Below, in pieces: positions 9,118 through 14,729 of a stretch of 64,000 nucleotides of DNA (position 1 is its first letter; each line of letters opens with the position of its first letter). The notes under the pieces are model-generated. The model saw only the letters and a program-made list of their open reading frames with translations, ran no database searches and had not been told where the DNA came from. This DNA comes from Limnohabitans sp. T6-5. Lineage in GTDB: Bacteria > Pseudomonadota > Gammaproteobacteria > Burkholderiales > Burkholderiaceae_C. The DNA is taken from positions 744,001 to 808,000 of the forward strand of contig NZ_NERV01000001.1 in assembly GCF_003063315.1 (NCBI RefSeq). The letters are read 5' to 3'. The position numbers and the translations under genes are program-made.

Positions 9118-10539
9118 ATGGCACGCACGCTTTACGACAAGATCTGGGACGAACACGTCGTCCACACCGAAGAAGACGGCACCTCCGTCCTCTACATCGA
9201 CCGCCATCTGGTGCACGAAGTCACCAGCCCGCAAGCCTTTGAGGGCCTGCGCCAAGCGGGCCGCAAAGTCTGGCGTGTCAGCTCCATCGTCGCCACCGCC
9301 GACCACAACACCCCCACCACTGGCTGGGAACTGGGCTACGACGGCATCACCGACCCGATCAGCAAAGAGCAAATCACCACGCTCGACGCCAACATGAAGG
9401 AATCCGGTTCGGCCGCCTTCTTCCCGTTTTTGTCAAAGCGCCAAGGCATCGTGCACGTCATTGGCCCTGAAAACGGCGCCACCCTGCCCGGCATGACCGT
9501 GGTTTGCGGCGACAGCCACACCTCCACCCACGGCGCGTTTGGTGCACTGGCCCACGGCATCGGCACCTCCGAAGTCGAACACGTCATGGCCACGCAAACC
9601 CTCTTGGCCAAAAAAGCCAAGAACATGCTGATCAAGGTCGAGGGCACCCTGGCCAAAGGCATCACCGGCAAAGACATCGTGCTGGCCATCATTGGCAAAA
9701 TCGGCACCGCTGGCGGCACCGGCTACACCATCGAATTCGCAGGCTCGGCCATCCGCAGCCTCTCCATGGAAGGCCGCATGACGGTCTGCAACATGGCCAT
9801 CGAAGGCGGCGCGCGCGCTGGTTTGGTGGCGGTGGACGAGAAAACCATCGAGTACGTCAAAGGCCGTTTGCTCTCGCCCACAGGCGTGGAGTGGGACCAC
9901 GCCGTGGCCTACTGGAAGACACTGCAGTCCGACCCCGGTGCGCACTTTGACGCCGTGGTTGAGCTGGACGCCAGCACCATCGTGCCTCAAGTCACCTGGG
10001 GCACCTCACCCGAAATGGTGCTGGGCATCGACGGTCACACGCCCGACCCAGACAAAGAAAAAGACGACGTCAAACGCGACGCCATCGAGCGCGCCCTGAC
10101 TTACATGGGTCTGCAGCCTGGCAAAGCCTTGTCCGACATCACCATCGACAAAGTGTTCATCGGCTCGTGCACCAACAGCCGCATCGAAGACATGCGCGAA
10201 GCCGCTGCCGTCGTCAAAAAGCTCGGCCAAAAAGTGGCCAAAAACGTCAAGCTGGCCATGGTCGTGCCCGGTTCGGGTCTGGTCAAAGTGCAAGCCGAAC
10301 AAGAAGGCTTGCATGAGATCTTCAAGGCTGCAGGCTTTGAGTGGCGTGAACCCGGCTGCTCCATGTGCCTGGCCATGAACGCCGACCGCTTGGAACCCGG
10401 TGAGCGCTGCGCATCGACATCCAACCGCAACTTCGAAGGCCGTCAAGGCGCGGGGGGCCGCACCCACCTGGTCAGCCCCGCCATGGCCGCCGCTGCGGCT
10501 GTGCACGGCCACTTTGTTGACATCCGCAAATTCGCCTGA
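9118..10539 (+). CDS. leuC: 3-isopropylmalate dehydratase large subunit
   Basis: 473 residues of the aconitase superfamily; with LeuD it isomerises 2- to 3-isopropylmalate in leucine synthesis. Cluster-ligand cysteines are seen in [12 protein letters not shown] and [10 protein letters not shown], and [19 protein letters not shown] is the conserved active-site stretch. The start [13 protein letters not shown] matches the family and follows AGAAGGAAG; nine extra in-frame codons upstream lack support. leuD follows after 20 bases. Confidence 0.97.
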
Positions 10540-10559
10540 AGCGTTCGAGGAAACCCAGC

Positions 10560-11204
10560 ATGCAGAAATTCACCCTCCTCAAAGGCCTGGTGGCCCCGAT
10601 GGACCGCGCCAACGTGGACACCGACGCCATCATCCCCAAACAGTTTTTGAAGTCCATCCGTAAAACCGGCTTTGGTCCCAATCTGTTCGACGAATGGCGT
10701 TACCTGGACGTGGGCTACCCCGGCCAAGACCCGGCCAGCCGCAAGCCCAACCCGGACTTCGTGCTGAACCAGCCGCGCTACCAAGGCGCCAGCATCTTGC
10801 TGGCGCGAAAGAACTTCGGCTGCGGGTCATCTCGCGAACATGCGCCTTGGGCGATTGACCAATACGGCTTTCGCTGCGTGATCGCGCCCAGCTTTGCCGA
10901 CATCTTTTTCAACAACTGCTTCAAAAACGGCCTGCTGCCCATCGTGCTGCCCGAAGCGGTGGTGGCCCAACTGTTCGACGAAGTGGCCGCCTTCCCCGGC
11001 TACGAACTCACCGTCGATCTGGAGCGTCAAGTGGTGGTGCGCCCCCAAGGCCAGGAAATCCCATTTGAAGTGCAAGCCTTCCGCAAGTACTGCCTGCTCA
11101 ACGGCTTGGACGACATTGGCCTGACCCTGCGCCACGCCGACAAGATCAAGGCCTATGAAGCCGAGCGTCTGGCCACCAAACCTTGGTTGGCGCACATTGC
11201 TTAA
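10560..11204 (+). CDS. leuD: 3-isopropylmalate dehydratase small subunit
   Basis: 214 residues, the swivelling-domain partner of LeuC. Family features are [16 protein letters not shown] near residue 20, the active-site loop [13 protein letters not shown] near residue 85, and [12 protein letters not shown]. It is the last normal-composition gene before the AT-rich insert; leuB, usually the next gene, lies 2.4 kb further on. Confidence 0.97.
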
Positions 11205-11250
11205 ATGACCATTGGAATAGTAATGGCATGAAAGTTATTAGGCGTAATTC

Positions 11251-12216
11251 ATGACAGCATCGATTCCATCGGCACCATTTACATGGACCAAACAACTTGA
11301 AACTGCTGCCAATCTGATTGAGACCCTTTCAAATCCGCAGCAATTTGCAAATAAATTCTTTCCAAACAACTGCTTGAGCCAGTCAAGCATCTATCCTCAA
11401 TGGGTTTTCCGCGGTGTAGGCAACAGTAATTATCGTTTGACACCTACATCCTTACGAACGAAAACCGAGGATTCCAACACATATGCGTTACTCAAATCTT
11501 ATGGTTTGAAAGAGTCCAATTGTTCAACCAAGACTTTCGATTCCAATAATCAAAAAAGAGTTGAATTAGAAATTATTTGCGAATTCTATAAACGCGCTCA
11601 TCGTGCAGGCCTGGCATTACCTCGGTTGAGCTACACATTACATCAATACCTACTTGAAAGTAATGTAAGCGAGTTGATGCATATACAGCATGGATCAATG
11701 ACTTGGCCCGATCACGAGTTGCTGCCGATTTTTGGAATTGCTCAACATTATGGTGTCCCCACTCGGTTACTTGACTGGTCACACAGTCCTTTTGTAGCAG
11801 CGTTTTTTGCAGCACAAAGTGCTGCAAAAGAGAACAAAAAAATTGAAACGTCCAAATTGGCAGTTTGGATTTTAAATTCCAAATTTCTCCAACATAATAA
11901 TGCAAGTGGCGTGCCTAGAGAAGTACTACACATCATCGAACCTCCAACCTCAGATAATCCAAATTTGAGTTTACAACAAGGTGTTTTCACTTTACAGTCA
12001 TACGAAAATGACAATCAAGAATTCGATCTATCTAAATATTTAATTGATAGCTTGGTGAAGTATCACATTAATCTACATATACCTATTCTGCTCAAACTAG
12101 AATTACCCGCATCCCAAAGTCGCGACTTGTTGCAACAACTAAGCGCCATAGGATATTCCGCCAATCGCATTTACAATGGATTTGAAGGTGCAGCCAAGTC
12201 GGTCTGGTTACGATAA
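11251..12216 (+). CDS. FRG domain-containing protein
   Basis: 321 residues. The signature WVFRGVGNSNYRLTPTSLR is at residues 51-69 (FRG at 53-55), and the second hallmark QHYGVPTRLLDWSHSP is at 165-180, followed by FVAAFFAA. These are the conserved elements of the FRG family (PF08867), whose biochemical role is unresolved and whose members often sit in mobile or defence islands. Base composition is visibly AT-rich and codon use differs from flanking leu genes, indicating recent acquisition. The ribosome site is weak. Its stop codon is part of the SD of the next gene, so the two are an operon. Confidence 0.85.
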   Translation: MTASIPSAPFTWTKQLETAANLIETLSNPQQFANKFFPNNCLSQSSIYPQWVFRGVGNSNYRLTPTSLRTKTEDSNTYALLKSYGLKESNCSTKTFDSNNQKRVELEIICEFYKRAHRAGLALPRLSYTLHQYLLESNVSELMHIQHGSMTWPDHELLPIFGIAQHYGVPTRLLDWSHSPFVAAFFAAQSAAKENKKIETSKLAVWILNSKFLQHNNASGVPREVLHIIEPPTSDNPNLSLQQGVFTLQSYENDNQEFDLSKYLIDSLVKYHINLHIPILLKLELPASQSRDLLQQLSAIGYSANRIYNGFEGAAKSVWLR

Positions 12217-12227
12217 GGAGTTTATAA

Positions 12228-13010
12228 ATGCCTTGTGTTTACATTTTTTCAAACCCAACAATCCCAGGCCTTCTAAAGATTGGATACACATCCAGAAGTG
12301 CTGGTGATAGGTGTCGCGAATTAAGTGCTCAAACAGGAGTAGCCAGCCCTTATTCTGTTGTATGGTTTATTGAAACGACGACTATCGAATCAGCTCAAGA
12401 CTTAGAACTGCGGGTTCACTCATCACTAAATCAACATAGATACAACCGTGCTCGTGAATTTTTTGATTGCTCTGAAGCTATAGCAAAAGATACTGTTGAA
12501 CGCATTGCCCATATAACTGGAGCTGCCGCATCTCCAAATCTTGCATTGATTGCACAAATAAGAGAAGACGAACAAGCCCAACAACGTGCAGCCCAAATAG
12601 AAATAAATAATCGCCTAGCAGAGGAAAAAGCAATAATTGATAATAATATTTCCCTAACTCGAAATATTGCACTTTCAGCAGCAAAAGAAACACTGAAATT
12701 CATTGAATCAGAAGAGTTTATTCGGTCAAAAAAATATTTTATACTTCAACGTCACAGCGAATTTGAACGTGAATTACTACATAGATCTCGTTATATTGCC
12801 TTTAAAAAATTCACAACCAATGAAAATATAAGAACAATTATGGATGCACAAGGTATATTAGATTTTCATACTCAATCTTTCCATAATACATCACTCGCAG
12901 AGCACAAAAAAAGACTTTCAAATTTTATTAAAGAAGAGCAAGATAAAAACCACAAACAAAATATTATTCACCCTCAGTTATCAACAGTATTGTTACCCGA
13001 GAAATTTTAA
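12228..13010 (+). CDS. GIY-YIG nuclease family protein (T5orf172 / MUG113 type)
   Basis: 260 residues. Residues 1-90 match the T5orf172/MUG113 branch of the GIY-YIG fold: VYIFSN, LKIGYT, the Arg-bearing RCRELSAQTGV, a helix with LELRVHSSL, and REFFDCS containing the metal-site Glu. The remainder (about 100-260) is charged and helical, with Glu/Gln/Lys-rich coiled-coil character and no domain I recognise. The ATG lies 11 bases after the FRG gene with AAGGAG overlapping that gene's stop codon, so translation is coupled. Strongly AT-rich. A DNA-binding or nicking partner of the FRG protein is a plausible but unproved role. Confidence 0.82.
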   Translation: MPCVYIFSNPTIPGLLKIGYTSRSAGDRCRELSAQTGVASPYSVVWFIETTTIESAQDLELRVHSSLNQHRYNRAREFFDCSEAIAKDTVERIAHITGAAASPNLALIAQIREDEQAQQRAAQIEINNRLAEEKAIIDNNISLTRNIALSAAKETLKFIESEEFIRSKKYFILQRHSEFERELLHRSRYIAFKKFTTNENIRTIMDAQGILDFHTQSFHNTSLAEHKKRLSNFIKEEQDKNHKQNIIHPQLSTVLLPEKF

Positions 13011-13075
13011 TTTTCTCTCTAAATCAGTAGATTAATTTAAACCACCCTTGCTCAGTTAACCATGGCTAAAGGTGT

Positions 13076-13345
13076 GTGGACAAAGACAACCCGAGCCTCG
13101 AAATCCACCACCGAGACATGTCAAAAATCCTGACGGATGAGGAAAAGAAAGATCTCAAACGAAGGCAAGCCATAGAACCGATGATCGGACACTTAAAGGC
13201 GGACCACCGGATGAACAGGTGCCACCTCAAAGGTGCGGTGTTTGTTAACAAAGTTTGCATGCTGTGCTGCGCATAGCGGGCTACAACATTCGGTGGTTGC
13301 TGCGCATGATCGCCAAAAAGGGCATTGGCTTTTTTTACGCCTGTT
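13076..13345 (+). pseudogene. IS5-family transposase C-terminal remnant, frameshifted
   Basis: The first frame gives a typical IS5 C-terminal segment: RRQAIEPMIGHLKADHRMNR then CHLKGA, where the Glu of AIEP would be the DDE glutamate. It stops after CMLCCA. A different frame continues the family sequence (HAVLRIAGYNIRWLLRMIAKKG then FF), so a frameshift separates them. The N-terminal two-thirds and the terminal repeats were not found. It marks past transposition at the right side of the AT-rich insert. Confidence 0.8.
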
Positions 13346-13602
13346 GTAGGCCAGCGGTTGGAGTCAACTTGACCGTCAATTCATGCGGTTTTTTGTTGGA
13401 AATTCGACTGCTAAAGGTTCAACGAGATTAGCTTTGCAGTGACAGTCAATTTGCAGGGGCGTCCAATCCCTAACAATGAGGAAAGCATCACTCGATTTTT
13501 AACCCATCTGGTATGTCCTGAATTCCAAAGCGCCTTAGCGAACGACATCTAGAATACGGCTTACCTTTTTTATTCTTTCTGCGAGCTCGCTCGCCTCACA
13601 CC
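13346..13602. other. Intergenic remainder between IS remnant and leuB
   Basis: No coding frame supported. The sequence keeps the AT-rich character until about position 13560, then returns to native composition just before leuB. No direct repeat flanking the whole insert was found by eye. A leuB promoter is expected here, but I cannot point to one. Confidence 0.5.
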
Positions 13603-14688
13603 ATGAAAATCGCAGTCCTCCCCGGTGATGGCATCGGCACCGAAATCGTCGCCGAAGCCGTCAAAGTCCTGAATACACTCAACCTGAAGTTCGAGATGGA
13701 AACCGCCCTGGTCGGCGGCGCGGCTTACGACGCCTATGGCCACCCCCTGCCCGAAGCCACGCTCAAGCTGGCCATGGCGTCTGACGCCGTGCTGTTTGGC
13801 GCTGTGGGCGACTGGAAATACGACAAGCTCGACCGCCCCCTGCGCCCCGAGCAAGCCATTTTGGGCCTGCGCAAAAACATGGGCCTGTTCGCCAACTTCC
13901 GCCCAGCGATTTGCTACGAGCAGCTGGTGGGCGCGTCCAGCCTCAAGCCCGAGCTGATTTCGGGTCTGGACATTTTGATCATCCGCGAGCTGACTGGCGA
14001 CATTTACTTCGGCCAGCCGCGCGGCCGCCGCATCGCGACCGACGGCCACTTCCCTGGCGCCGAAGAAGCCTTTGACACCATGCGCTACTCCAAGCCCGAG
14101 ATCGAGCGCATCGCGCACGTGGCCTTCCAAGCCGCCCGCAAGCGCAAAGCCGCAGGCAAAGAGGGCCGCGTGACCAGCGTGGACAAAGCCAACGTCCTCG
14201 AAACCTTCCAGTTCTGGAAAGACGTGGTCACCGAAGTCGGCCAGCAATACCCCGACATCGCACTGGACCACATGTACGTGGACAACGCCGCCATGCAACT
14301 GGTCAAAGAGCCCAAGCGCTTTGACGTGGTGGTCACCGGCAACATGTTCGGCGACATCTTGTCCGACGAAGCCTCCATGCTCACAGGCTCGATCGGCATG
14401 CTGCCCTCGGCCAGCCTGAACACGAAGAACCAAGGCCTGTACGAGCCCAGCCACGGCAGCGCACCCGACATCGCGGGCAAAGGCATCGCCAACCCGCTGG
14501 CCACCATTTTGAGCGCGGCCATGATGCTGCGCTTCAGCTTGAACCAGGGCGAAGCCGCCGAACGCATCGAAGCTGCTGTGCAAAAAGTGCTGGCGCAAGG
14601 CCTGCGAACCGGCGACATCTGGAGCGAAGGCACCACCAAGGTCGGCACCCGCGAAATGGGTGACGCGGTGGTCAGGGCCCTCGGCTGA
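13603..14688 (+). CDS. leuB: 3-isopropylmalate dehydrogenase
   Basis: 361 residues; NAD-dependent oxidative decarboxylation of 3-isopropylmalate, the third step of leucine synthesis. Conserved parts include [10 protein letters not shown] at the start, [16 protein letters not shown]-type substrate-binding residues (here [16 protein letters not shown]), [12 protein letters not shown], the catalytic Lys/Asp segments [19 protein letters not shown], and [18 protein letters not shown] for cofactor binding. Its separation from leuCD by the insert means it may no longer be in the same transcript. Confidence 0.97.
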
Positions 14689-14697
14689 GCCCCCAAA

Positions 14698-14729
14698 GGA
14701 TGCTGTCAGGAAGCGCTCAGGCAGCATCC
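14698..14729. terminator. Hairpin after leuB (no T run)
   Basis: GGATGCTG and CAGCATCC pair perfectly around a 16-base loop, beginning 10 bases after the leuB stop. There is no downstream poly-T, so it may stabilise or end the transcript in a Rho-dependent way; function uncertain. Confidence 0.4.

Follow-up and report, generated by a model that had tools for sequence, protein, structure and literature searches.

Several described systems come close to one half or the other of the locus considered here. A passage of PMC9503650 places Frg in the ADP-ribosyltransferase (ART) superfamily, and part of PMC11037411 presents GIY-YIG-RAMA and wH-GIY-YIG proteins as modification-dependent type IV restriction, the RAMA fusion being only proposed. 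ICP1 Gp88 is described in a section of PMC8263062 as an origin-directed T5orf172 nuclease used in genetic conflict. Here we analyse 64,000 nucleotides of Limnohabitans sp. T6-5 (contig NZ_NERV01000001.1, positions 744,001 to 808,000; hereafter the window), in which an FRG-domain gene and a T5orf172-type GIY-YIG nuclease gene stand next to each other in a cassette between leuD and leuB (window positions 11205-13602). The cassette is horizontally acquired DNA of foreign composition, scarred by an insertion sequence (IS). We give a probability of about 0.6 to the reading that it is an acquired, IS-scarred insertion whose two defence-type genes work in parallel and do not form one dedicated machine.

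The insertion measures 2398 bases and lies between two plus-strand open reading frames (ORFs) that we take to be leuD (10560-11204, the small subunit of 3-isopropylmalate dehydratase) and leuB (13603-14688, 3-isopropylmalate dehydrogenase). Its boundaries coincide with a steep fall in the GC fraction, as the first-pass annotation had noticed. In 500-base windows the value drops from about 0.60 outside to 0.33-0.41 inside, and in 1-kb bins the insertion accounts for values of 0.437, 0.363 and 0.523, while the other 61 of the 64 bins average 0.602 (standard deviation 0.031, minimum 0.526). The FRG gene (11251-12216, plus strand, 321 residues) has a GC fraction of 0.400 and the GIY-YIG gene (12228-13010, plus strand, 260 residues) one of 0.355, against 0.60-0.63 for leuC, leuD and leuB; at third codon positions the two genes stand at 0.36 and 0.21, against 0.78-0.83 for the leu genes. 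The two genes share the strand of the leu genes and are separated by only 11 bases, with an AAGGAG Shine-Dalgarno sequence overlapping the TAA stop of the FRG gene (12214-12227, plus strand), so that the tight coupling proposed earlier holds. The suspected transposase scar is likewise real: behind the GIY-YIG gene, at about 13055-13359 on the plus strand, lies a degenerate 3' fragment of a DDE transposase gene, 75% identical at the DNA level to C3:573667-573967 of the same genome (G000), which falls within a full-length transposase ORF of 492 residues with DUF772 and DDE_Tnp_1 domains.

Measured against other genomes of the genus, the stretch 11205-13602 is an insertion. Of 30 genomes drawn, Limnohabitans sp. 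T6-5 among them, 29 gave a LeuB match, and in all 24 genomes carrying both genes on the fetched stretch the distance from the leuD stop to the leuB start was 15-93 bases, compared with 2398 here. The five LeuB loci outside these 24 are the window itself, one in genome G582, and three (L263, L266, L267) in which the contig ends at or just before leuB. The splitting of leuD from leuB by foreign DNA, claimed in the first-pass annotation from composition and now seen in the interval of close relatives, is thus well founded, and the locus offers a clean example of defence-type cargo landed inside a core metabolic operon.

In G582 (contig C22, L268:1198-7295) leuB stands behind unrelated large genes, presumably secretion- and adhesin-like, and leuD lies on another contig, C4. 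About 35 bases directly upstream of leuB are common to G582 and the window; at least two genomes thus show a disturbed leuD-leuB junction.

The first gene of the cassette belongs to the FRG family, as its hallmarks had suggested. Its product matches Pfam PF08867 (E 1.5e-18, 67.9 bits against a cut-off of 25) and the PADLOC phage-defence candidate PDC-S15 (E 3.2e-36, in a library that shows no cut-off); NCBIfam has no family for either this protein or its GIY-YIG neighbour. The (F/Y)RG, AQHxGxPTRLLDW and QxG motifs are all found, and the residues at conserved columns are R54, G55, E105, Q165, H166, T171, D175 and Q242. Among 126 FRG sequences, R54, G55, E105 and D175 occur in 126 and Q242 in 125; these sequences were picked with the pattern AQH..T, which makes the invariance of that stretch among them a matter of construction. 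Within a set of nine sequences chosen by tblastn, the window protein included, the AQHYGVPTR stretch is kept, with A164, Q165, H166, G168, T171 and R172 invariant; one member of this set (L075) lacks the FRG part. In its domain, its conserved columns and its sporadic distribution the window protein resembles the PDC-S15/PF08867 proteins of phages and plasmids, and its length of 321 residues fits the 290-350 or so typical of the 160 FRG loci described below. It differs from them in being divergent, the closest of the relatives compared being about 34% identical.

A likely ART-like fold is suggested by the predicted structure of the FRG protein. The AlphaFold model, built on an alignment of 104 sequences, has a mean predicted local distance difference test score (pLDDT) of 86.3 and a predicted template modelling score (pTM) of 0.88. 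When it was compared with 387 chains by VIA-align 2, which returned 37 rows, ranks 1-32 were, judging by their titles, all ART-fold proteins, with Z no higher than 4.8, a level that alone proves little. They comprise enterotoxin A chains, KptA, Rhs toxins, pertussis S1, Arr and others; the rows not recognised as ART proteins include an uncharacterised Caulobacter protein at rank 33 and a V-ATPase entry in last place. We consider the assignment likely because the list is nearly exclusively ART and because the part of PMC9503650 mentioned above places Frg in the same superfamily. By sequence, the search for relatives of solved structure gave one chance-like match (E 0.28).

The alignment ranges also hint that R54 may correspond to a residue of the toxin active site. 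If the start of the alignment is ungapped, R54 pairs with chain residue 7 or 9 in rows where model residue 48 meets chain residue 1, 51 meets 4, or 46 meets 1; the starts at 48 and 51 are those of most cholera/LT rows and that at 46 is pertussis S1, whereas 1s5c_A and 1tii_A are two residues off. Chain residue 7 or 9 of these toxins is, we assume, the arginine of motif I that binds nicotinamide adenine dinucleotide (NAD+). The conserved R54 is a candidate active-site residue of FRG proteins. The idea, already proposed, that these are ADP-ribosyltransferase-type effectors gains some structural support from the model, though it is weak.

The second gene encodes a GIY-YIG protein in which both expected Pfam profiles exceed their cut-offs: T5orf172 (PF10544, E 5.8e-16, 59.3 bits against 20) and MUG113 (PF13455, E 1.1e-10, 42.4 bits against 22.3). 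The protein also matches the PADLOC phage-defence candidate PDC-S57 (E 1.5e-21). Its nuclease domain covers residues of about 1-97, in which Y5, K17, G19, R28, H64 and E77 are invariant in an alignment of 13 sequences (A2). In a second alignment of 51 sequences (A5), gathered with a pattern that itself contained K17 and G19, R28, H64 and E77 are invariant and Y5 nearly so. We presume these six columns to be catalytic. The nuclease domain is followed by a long helical tail (about 105-245), which the first-pass annotation had proposed and the AlphaFold model (pLDDT 83.7, pTM 0.54) also predicts: a 55-residue helix at 105-159, a second long helix at 162-197 and two shorter, poorly predicted helices. 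With this model, the top solved structures in Foldseek are Slx1 GIY-YIG nucleases (probability 0.96, E 0.12), no match reaching an E of 0.001 or less, and the sequence alignment found no plausible relative of solved structure.

Set beside its relatives, the window protein shares with PDC-S57/T5orf172 proteins an N-terminal GIY-YIG domain in which Y, K, G, R, H and E are invariant, and differs from many close relatives in A2 (about 207-223 residues, with another C-terminal region) by its 260 residues and long helical tail. The C-terminal region of many of these relatives presumably resembles RAMA, which Pfam did not call. Pfam at E up to 1 recognised T5orf172 and MUG113 in the window protein and no tail domain, wH or RAMA, so the modification-reading domain expected of type IV restriction is not seen in it. 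A further comparison is with ICP1 Gp88, which we take to be Odn. It is a T5orf172 nuclease too, with a RepA_N-like domain N-terminal to the nuclease, whereas in the window protein the nuclease itself is N-terminal. As for the GIY-YIG-RAMA and wH-GIY-YIG proteins, what the window protein has in common with those described in that part of PMC11037411 is a GIY-YIG nuclease domain joined to another region; it differs in the lack of a wH or RAMA domain recognised by Pfam.

The pairing of the two genes hardly recurs. Among 369 class-level genomes FRG was found in 34, T5orf172 in 48 and both in 8 (4.4 expected, P 0.057; 7 against 4.2 expected, P 0.11, when the window's genome is left out), and the two were neighbours only in the window and in G449. 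Among 399 family-level genomes, a draw that overlaps the first by a few genomes, FRG was found in 38, T5orf172 in 56 and both in 7 (5.3 expected, P 0.27; 6 against 5.1, P 0.40, without the window's genome), with neighbours in the window's genome only. In draft genomes FRG and T5orf172 are often on separate contigs, and split pairs may be missed. Locus by locus the picture is the same. T5orf172 adjoins FRG in none of 160 FRG loci and occurs within the flank of one (L103), about 3 kb away, on the opposite strand and with genes between. These loci are the best 80 of at least 578 genomic-contig relatives and the best 80 of 136 viral-contig relatives. All were picked by the pattern AQH[HY]G.., and the set has some redundancy, with 123 distinct proteins of 280-370 residues; flanks reach up to 6 kb and are often shortened by contig ends. 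Conversely, FRG lies in the flank of none of 137 T5orf172 loci besides the window's own; that set of 138 joins the best 80 of 223 viral relatives (flank up to 5 kb) to 58 genomic ones (about 1.5 kb) and does not contain the T5orf172 gene of G449. Genome searches gave 62 further FRG loci with flanks of about 1.5 kb, and T5orf172 was present only at the window and G449.

In 200 family genomes searched with the single proteins, the FRG protein matched its own genome only, and the GIY-YIG protein was also matched at C5 of its own genome and in G184. Single-sequence scans (the FRG protein against genomic contigs, the GIY-YIG protein against viral contigs) returned no relatives; alignment queries found them. 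FRG is sporadic in the genus: an FRG gene occurs in 1 of the 29 other genomes of the genus draw (G585), and one more was seen in G779, a further genus member that came up in the family-level draw; no T5orf172 gene lies within about 1.5 kb of FRG in either (L408 and L276, respectively).

The one neighbouring case outside the window, in G449 (contig C21, L067:109-5585), is of a different make. Two ORFs for Eco57I/MmeI-type methylases are followed by FRG and, after 84 bases, by a gene for an 835-residue T5orf172-ResIII protein, in which the match to a ResIII-type helicase falls just under the cut-off. As in the window, the T5orf172 gene directly follows FRG on the same strand; the window has neither the fusion to a helicase nor a methylase. 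G449 thus shows FRG joining a restriction-type operon, yet not the pair of the window, and the run may be a form of restriction-modification that includes FRG.

Both families are at home on mobile elements, as had been stated in the first-pass annotation: FRG was found in 30 plasmid and 5 phage records, and T5orf172 in 16 plasmid and 92 phage records. The neighbourhoods of FRG present a picture of single-gene cargo. Among 85 co-directional genes within 200 bases of FRG (hand-thinned from 112 by removing duplicates and some small genes), the commonest Pfam families, among the first 25 listed of 63, were phage integrase with 8 and carbon-nitrogen hydrolase with 4, followed at 2 each by AbiU2, RloB, reverse transcriptase, nicotinate phosphoribosyltransferase and Schlafen AlbA_2. 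With the top family at only 8 of 85, a common tight co-directional partner of FRG was rejected. One plasmid has FRG beside an Abi-family gene, one annotated record has it near a restriction endonuclease gene, and in Salmonella phage SEN8 it is a reversed single gene amid structural genes. The annotation tables of the eight FRG records opened contain no GIY-YIG gene.

The association with defence, earlier suggested for the cassette, is borne out by the presence of both families in the PADLOC candidate library and by the surroundings of related genes in the same genome, where an AbiL pair is found close to a T5orf172 relative, and a truncated type I methylase close to a sub-threshold FRG-like gene. 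The T5orf172 relative, at C5:180106, is 49% identical over 119 residues to the window's GIY-YIG protein. An AbiLi/AbiLii pair (PADLOC 4.9e-101 and 1.3e-22) stands about 1.7 kb from it, and HSDR_N and HipA-type genes are found in the opposite direction. DUF924 flanks it on one side, and on the other the 3' end of DUF924 recurs as a 223-base second copy at 89% identity. Its contig holds a single FRG match, below threshold and about 125 kb off.

Given these results, the best reading is that the FRG and GIY-YIG genes each belong to a known kind of defence-like gene and came to be stacked in a single cassette, more probably by chance than as a new immune system of two parts. What the first-pass annotation had claimed of foreign DNA, tight coupling and mobile, phage and defence associations stands; the FRG and GIY-YIG pair as a system is not supported, the suggested survey of adjacent pairs in the class- and family-level draws having turned up G449 alone besides the window's genome, which comes close to the absence of any pairing elsewhere. 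Once a phage is sensed, the FRG protein, if an ART-fold effector as modelled, would consume NAD+ or ADP-ribosylate a host or phage target, and the infected cell would thereby stop supporting the phage. The GIY-YIG protein would cut invading DNA, its helical tail perhaps serving oligomerisation or target recognition. In the open-access journal literature searched we recognised no paper in which an FRG protein was tried experimentally against phages, and found none on FRG together with GIY-YIG.

As to expression, the cassette is perhaps co-expressed with the leu operon. A promoter scan found three sigma-70-like sites against 5.2 expected by chance; the lack of an excess, together with co-direction with the leu genes, suggests read-through from the operon. 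Without a convincing promoter of their own both genes would then be read through from leu, and the GIY-YIG gene would be translationally coupled to FRG. Terminator-like sites number seven in the region (five on the plus strand) against 2.6 in shuffled sequence; because they exceed expectation and two lie just behind the cassette, read-through into leuB is uncertain.

Several observations weigh against our interpretation of two parallel defence-type genes, or against parts of it. Foldseek with the FRG model gave no match with an E below 1, only mixed folds, and most of its rows, the top one included, were not recognised as ART proteins; the structural match to ART folds is weak even in VIA-align 2, where the best Z is 4.8. 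The two terminator-like sites behind the cassette, at 13312 and 13371, make read-through from it into leuB doubtful. The tight coupling is what interacting partners would be expected to show, and G449 repeats the order, the strand and, at 84 bases, something of the closeness of the window's pair. A homing-endonuclease role for the GIY-YIG gene, which we regard as quite improbable, would also tell against it.

The coupling and G449 speak most directly for a genuine two-gene system, in which GIY-YIG senses or cuts foreign DNA and FRG acts as a cell-suicide effector, their dosage matched by translational coupling. The 11-base gap and the overlap of Shine-Dalgarno sequence and stop codon fit this well, as does FRG followed by T5orf172 on one strand of an operon-like run with an Eco57I-type methylase; by a hand estimate over 21 FRG x T5orf172 pairs in those genomes of the two draws that hold both, the window's excluded, random placement would give about 0.02 pairs within 1.5 kb, and one was seen. 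Yet the T5orf172 protein of G449 differs in architecture, the 399 family-level genomes hold no adjacent pair besides the window's, only one of the 160 FRG loci has T5orf172 in its flank, without adjacency, FRG lies in the flank of none of the 137 T5orf172 loci apart from the window's, and the T5orf172 relative in the same genome is about 125 kb from the nearest FRG match on its contig, which is sub-threshold. A two-gene defence system would be expected to place the two genes side by side repeatedly in unrelated genomes; this was not found, and a conserved FRG and GIY-YIG operon as a general system was rejected on the near-absence of adjacency in genome draws and locus sets. We hold such a system to be unlikely. 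In its narrower form, a rare abortive-infection module of two components, a metabolic operon would supply the GIY-YIG nuclease and the NAD-consuming, ART-fold FRG effector in fixed ratio, one licensing the other. This seems rather improbable; were it true, the methylase-FRG-GIY-YIG-helicase operon of G449 would be its restriction-modification version. A new pairwise system would matter more than stacked cargo, but recurrence does not back one.

Mobility and decay give two other accounts. GIY-YIG could be a free-standing homing-endonuclease-like gene that opens intergenic sites into which the cassette, with FRG as its cargo, is copied. The T5orf172 domain of ICP1 Gp88 resembles putative homing endonucleases according to a part of PMC8263062, the window's genome holds the two relatives at unrelated sites, and the relative on C5 is flanked by DUF924 and the copied DUF924 3' end as if the flank had travelled along. 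At the leu site, however, the repeat search found only short, chance-like terminal repeats, with no duplicated flank or long terminal repeats; Pfam recognises no further domain in the tail, and the transposase remnant could equally explain the arrival of the cassette, which leaves homing a decidedly poor prospect. That the cassette is decaying debris, left from a mobile island since lost and now without function, is very improbable: the transposase is indeed merely a remnant and relatives lack the insertion at the leuD-leuB site, but both ORFs are open throughout with their conserved columns kept, and the coupling signal is intact.

Scans for other features gave no tRNA or tmRNA in the 64-kb window and, at gathering thresholds, no Rfam match in 10500-14700. 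Elsewhere in the genome, the surroundings of the C5 T5orf172 gene (L068:7473-9047, C5 about 179.5-181.0 kb) form a defence-island-like spot with an unusual boundary of duplicated gene ends. Another C5 locus (L069:1704-7717) has a sub-threshold FRG-like gene adjoining an apparently broken type I restriction locus with a truncated HsdM, a RhuM-family gene (PDC-S05) and a C-terminal fragment of a type I R subunit. The weak FRG match at C5:55174 was rejected as an FRG gene, being below the Pfam cut-off and given no family by hmmscan with Pfam and PADLOC. Plasmid-borne FRG genes adjoin genes for SOS-response-associated peptidases in two unrelated hosts (L071, L073), and in G245 three FRG matches lie within about 23 kb of one contig (C100, 10.6-33.9 kb), with a fourth on another contig.

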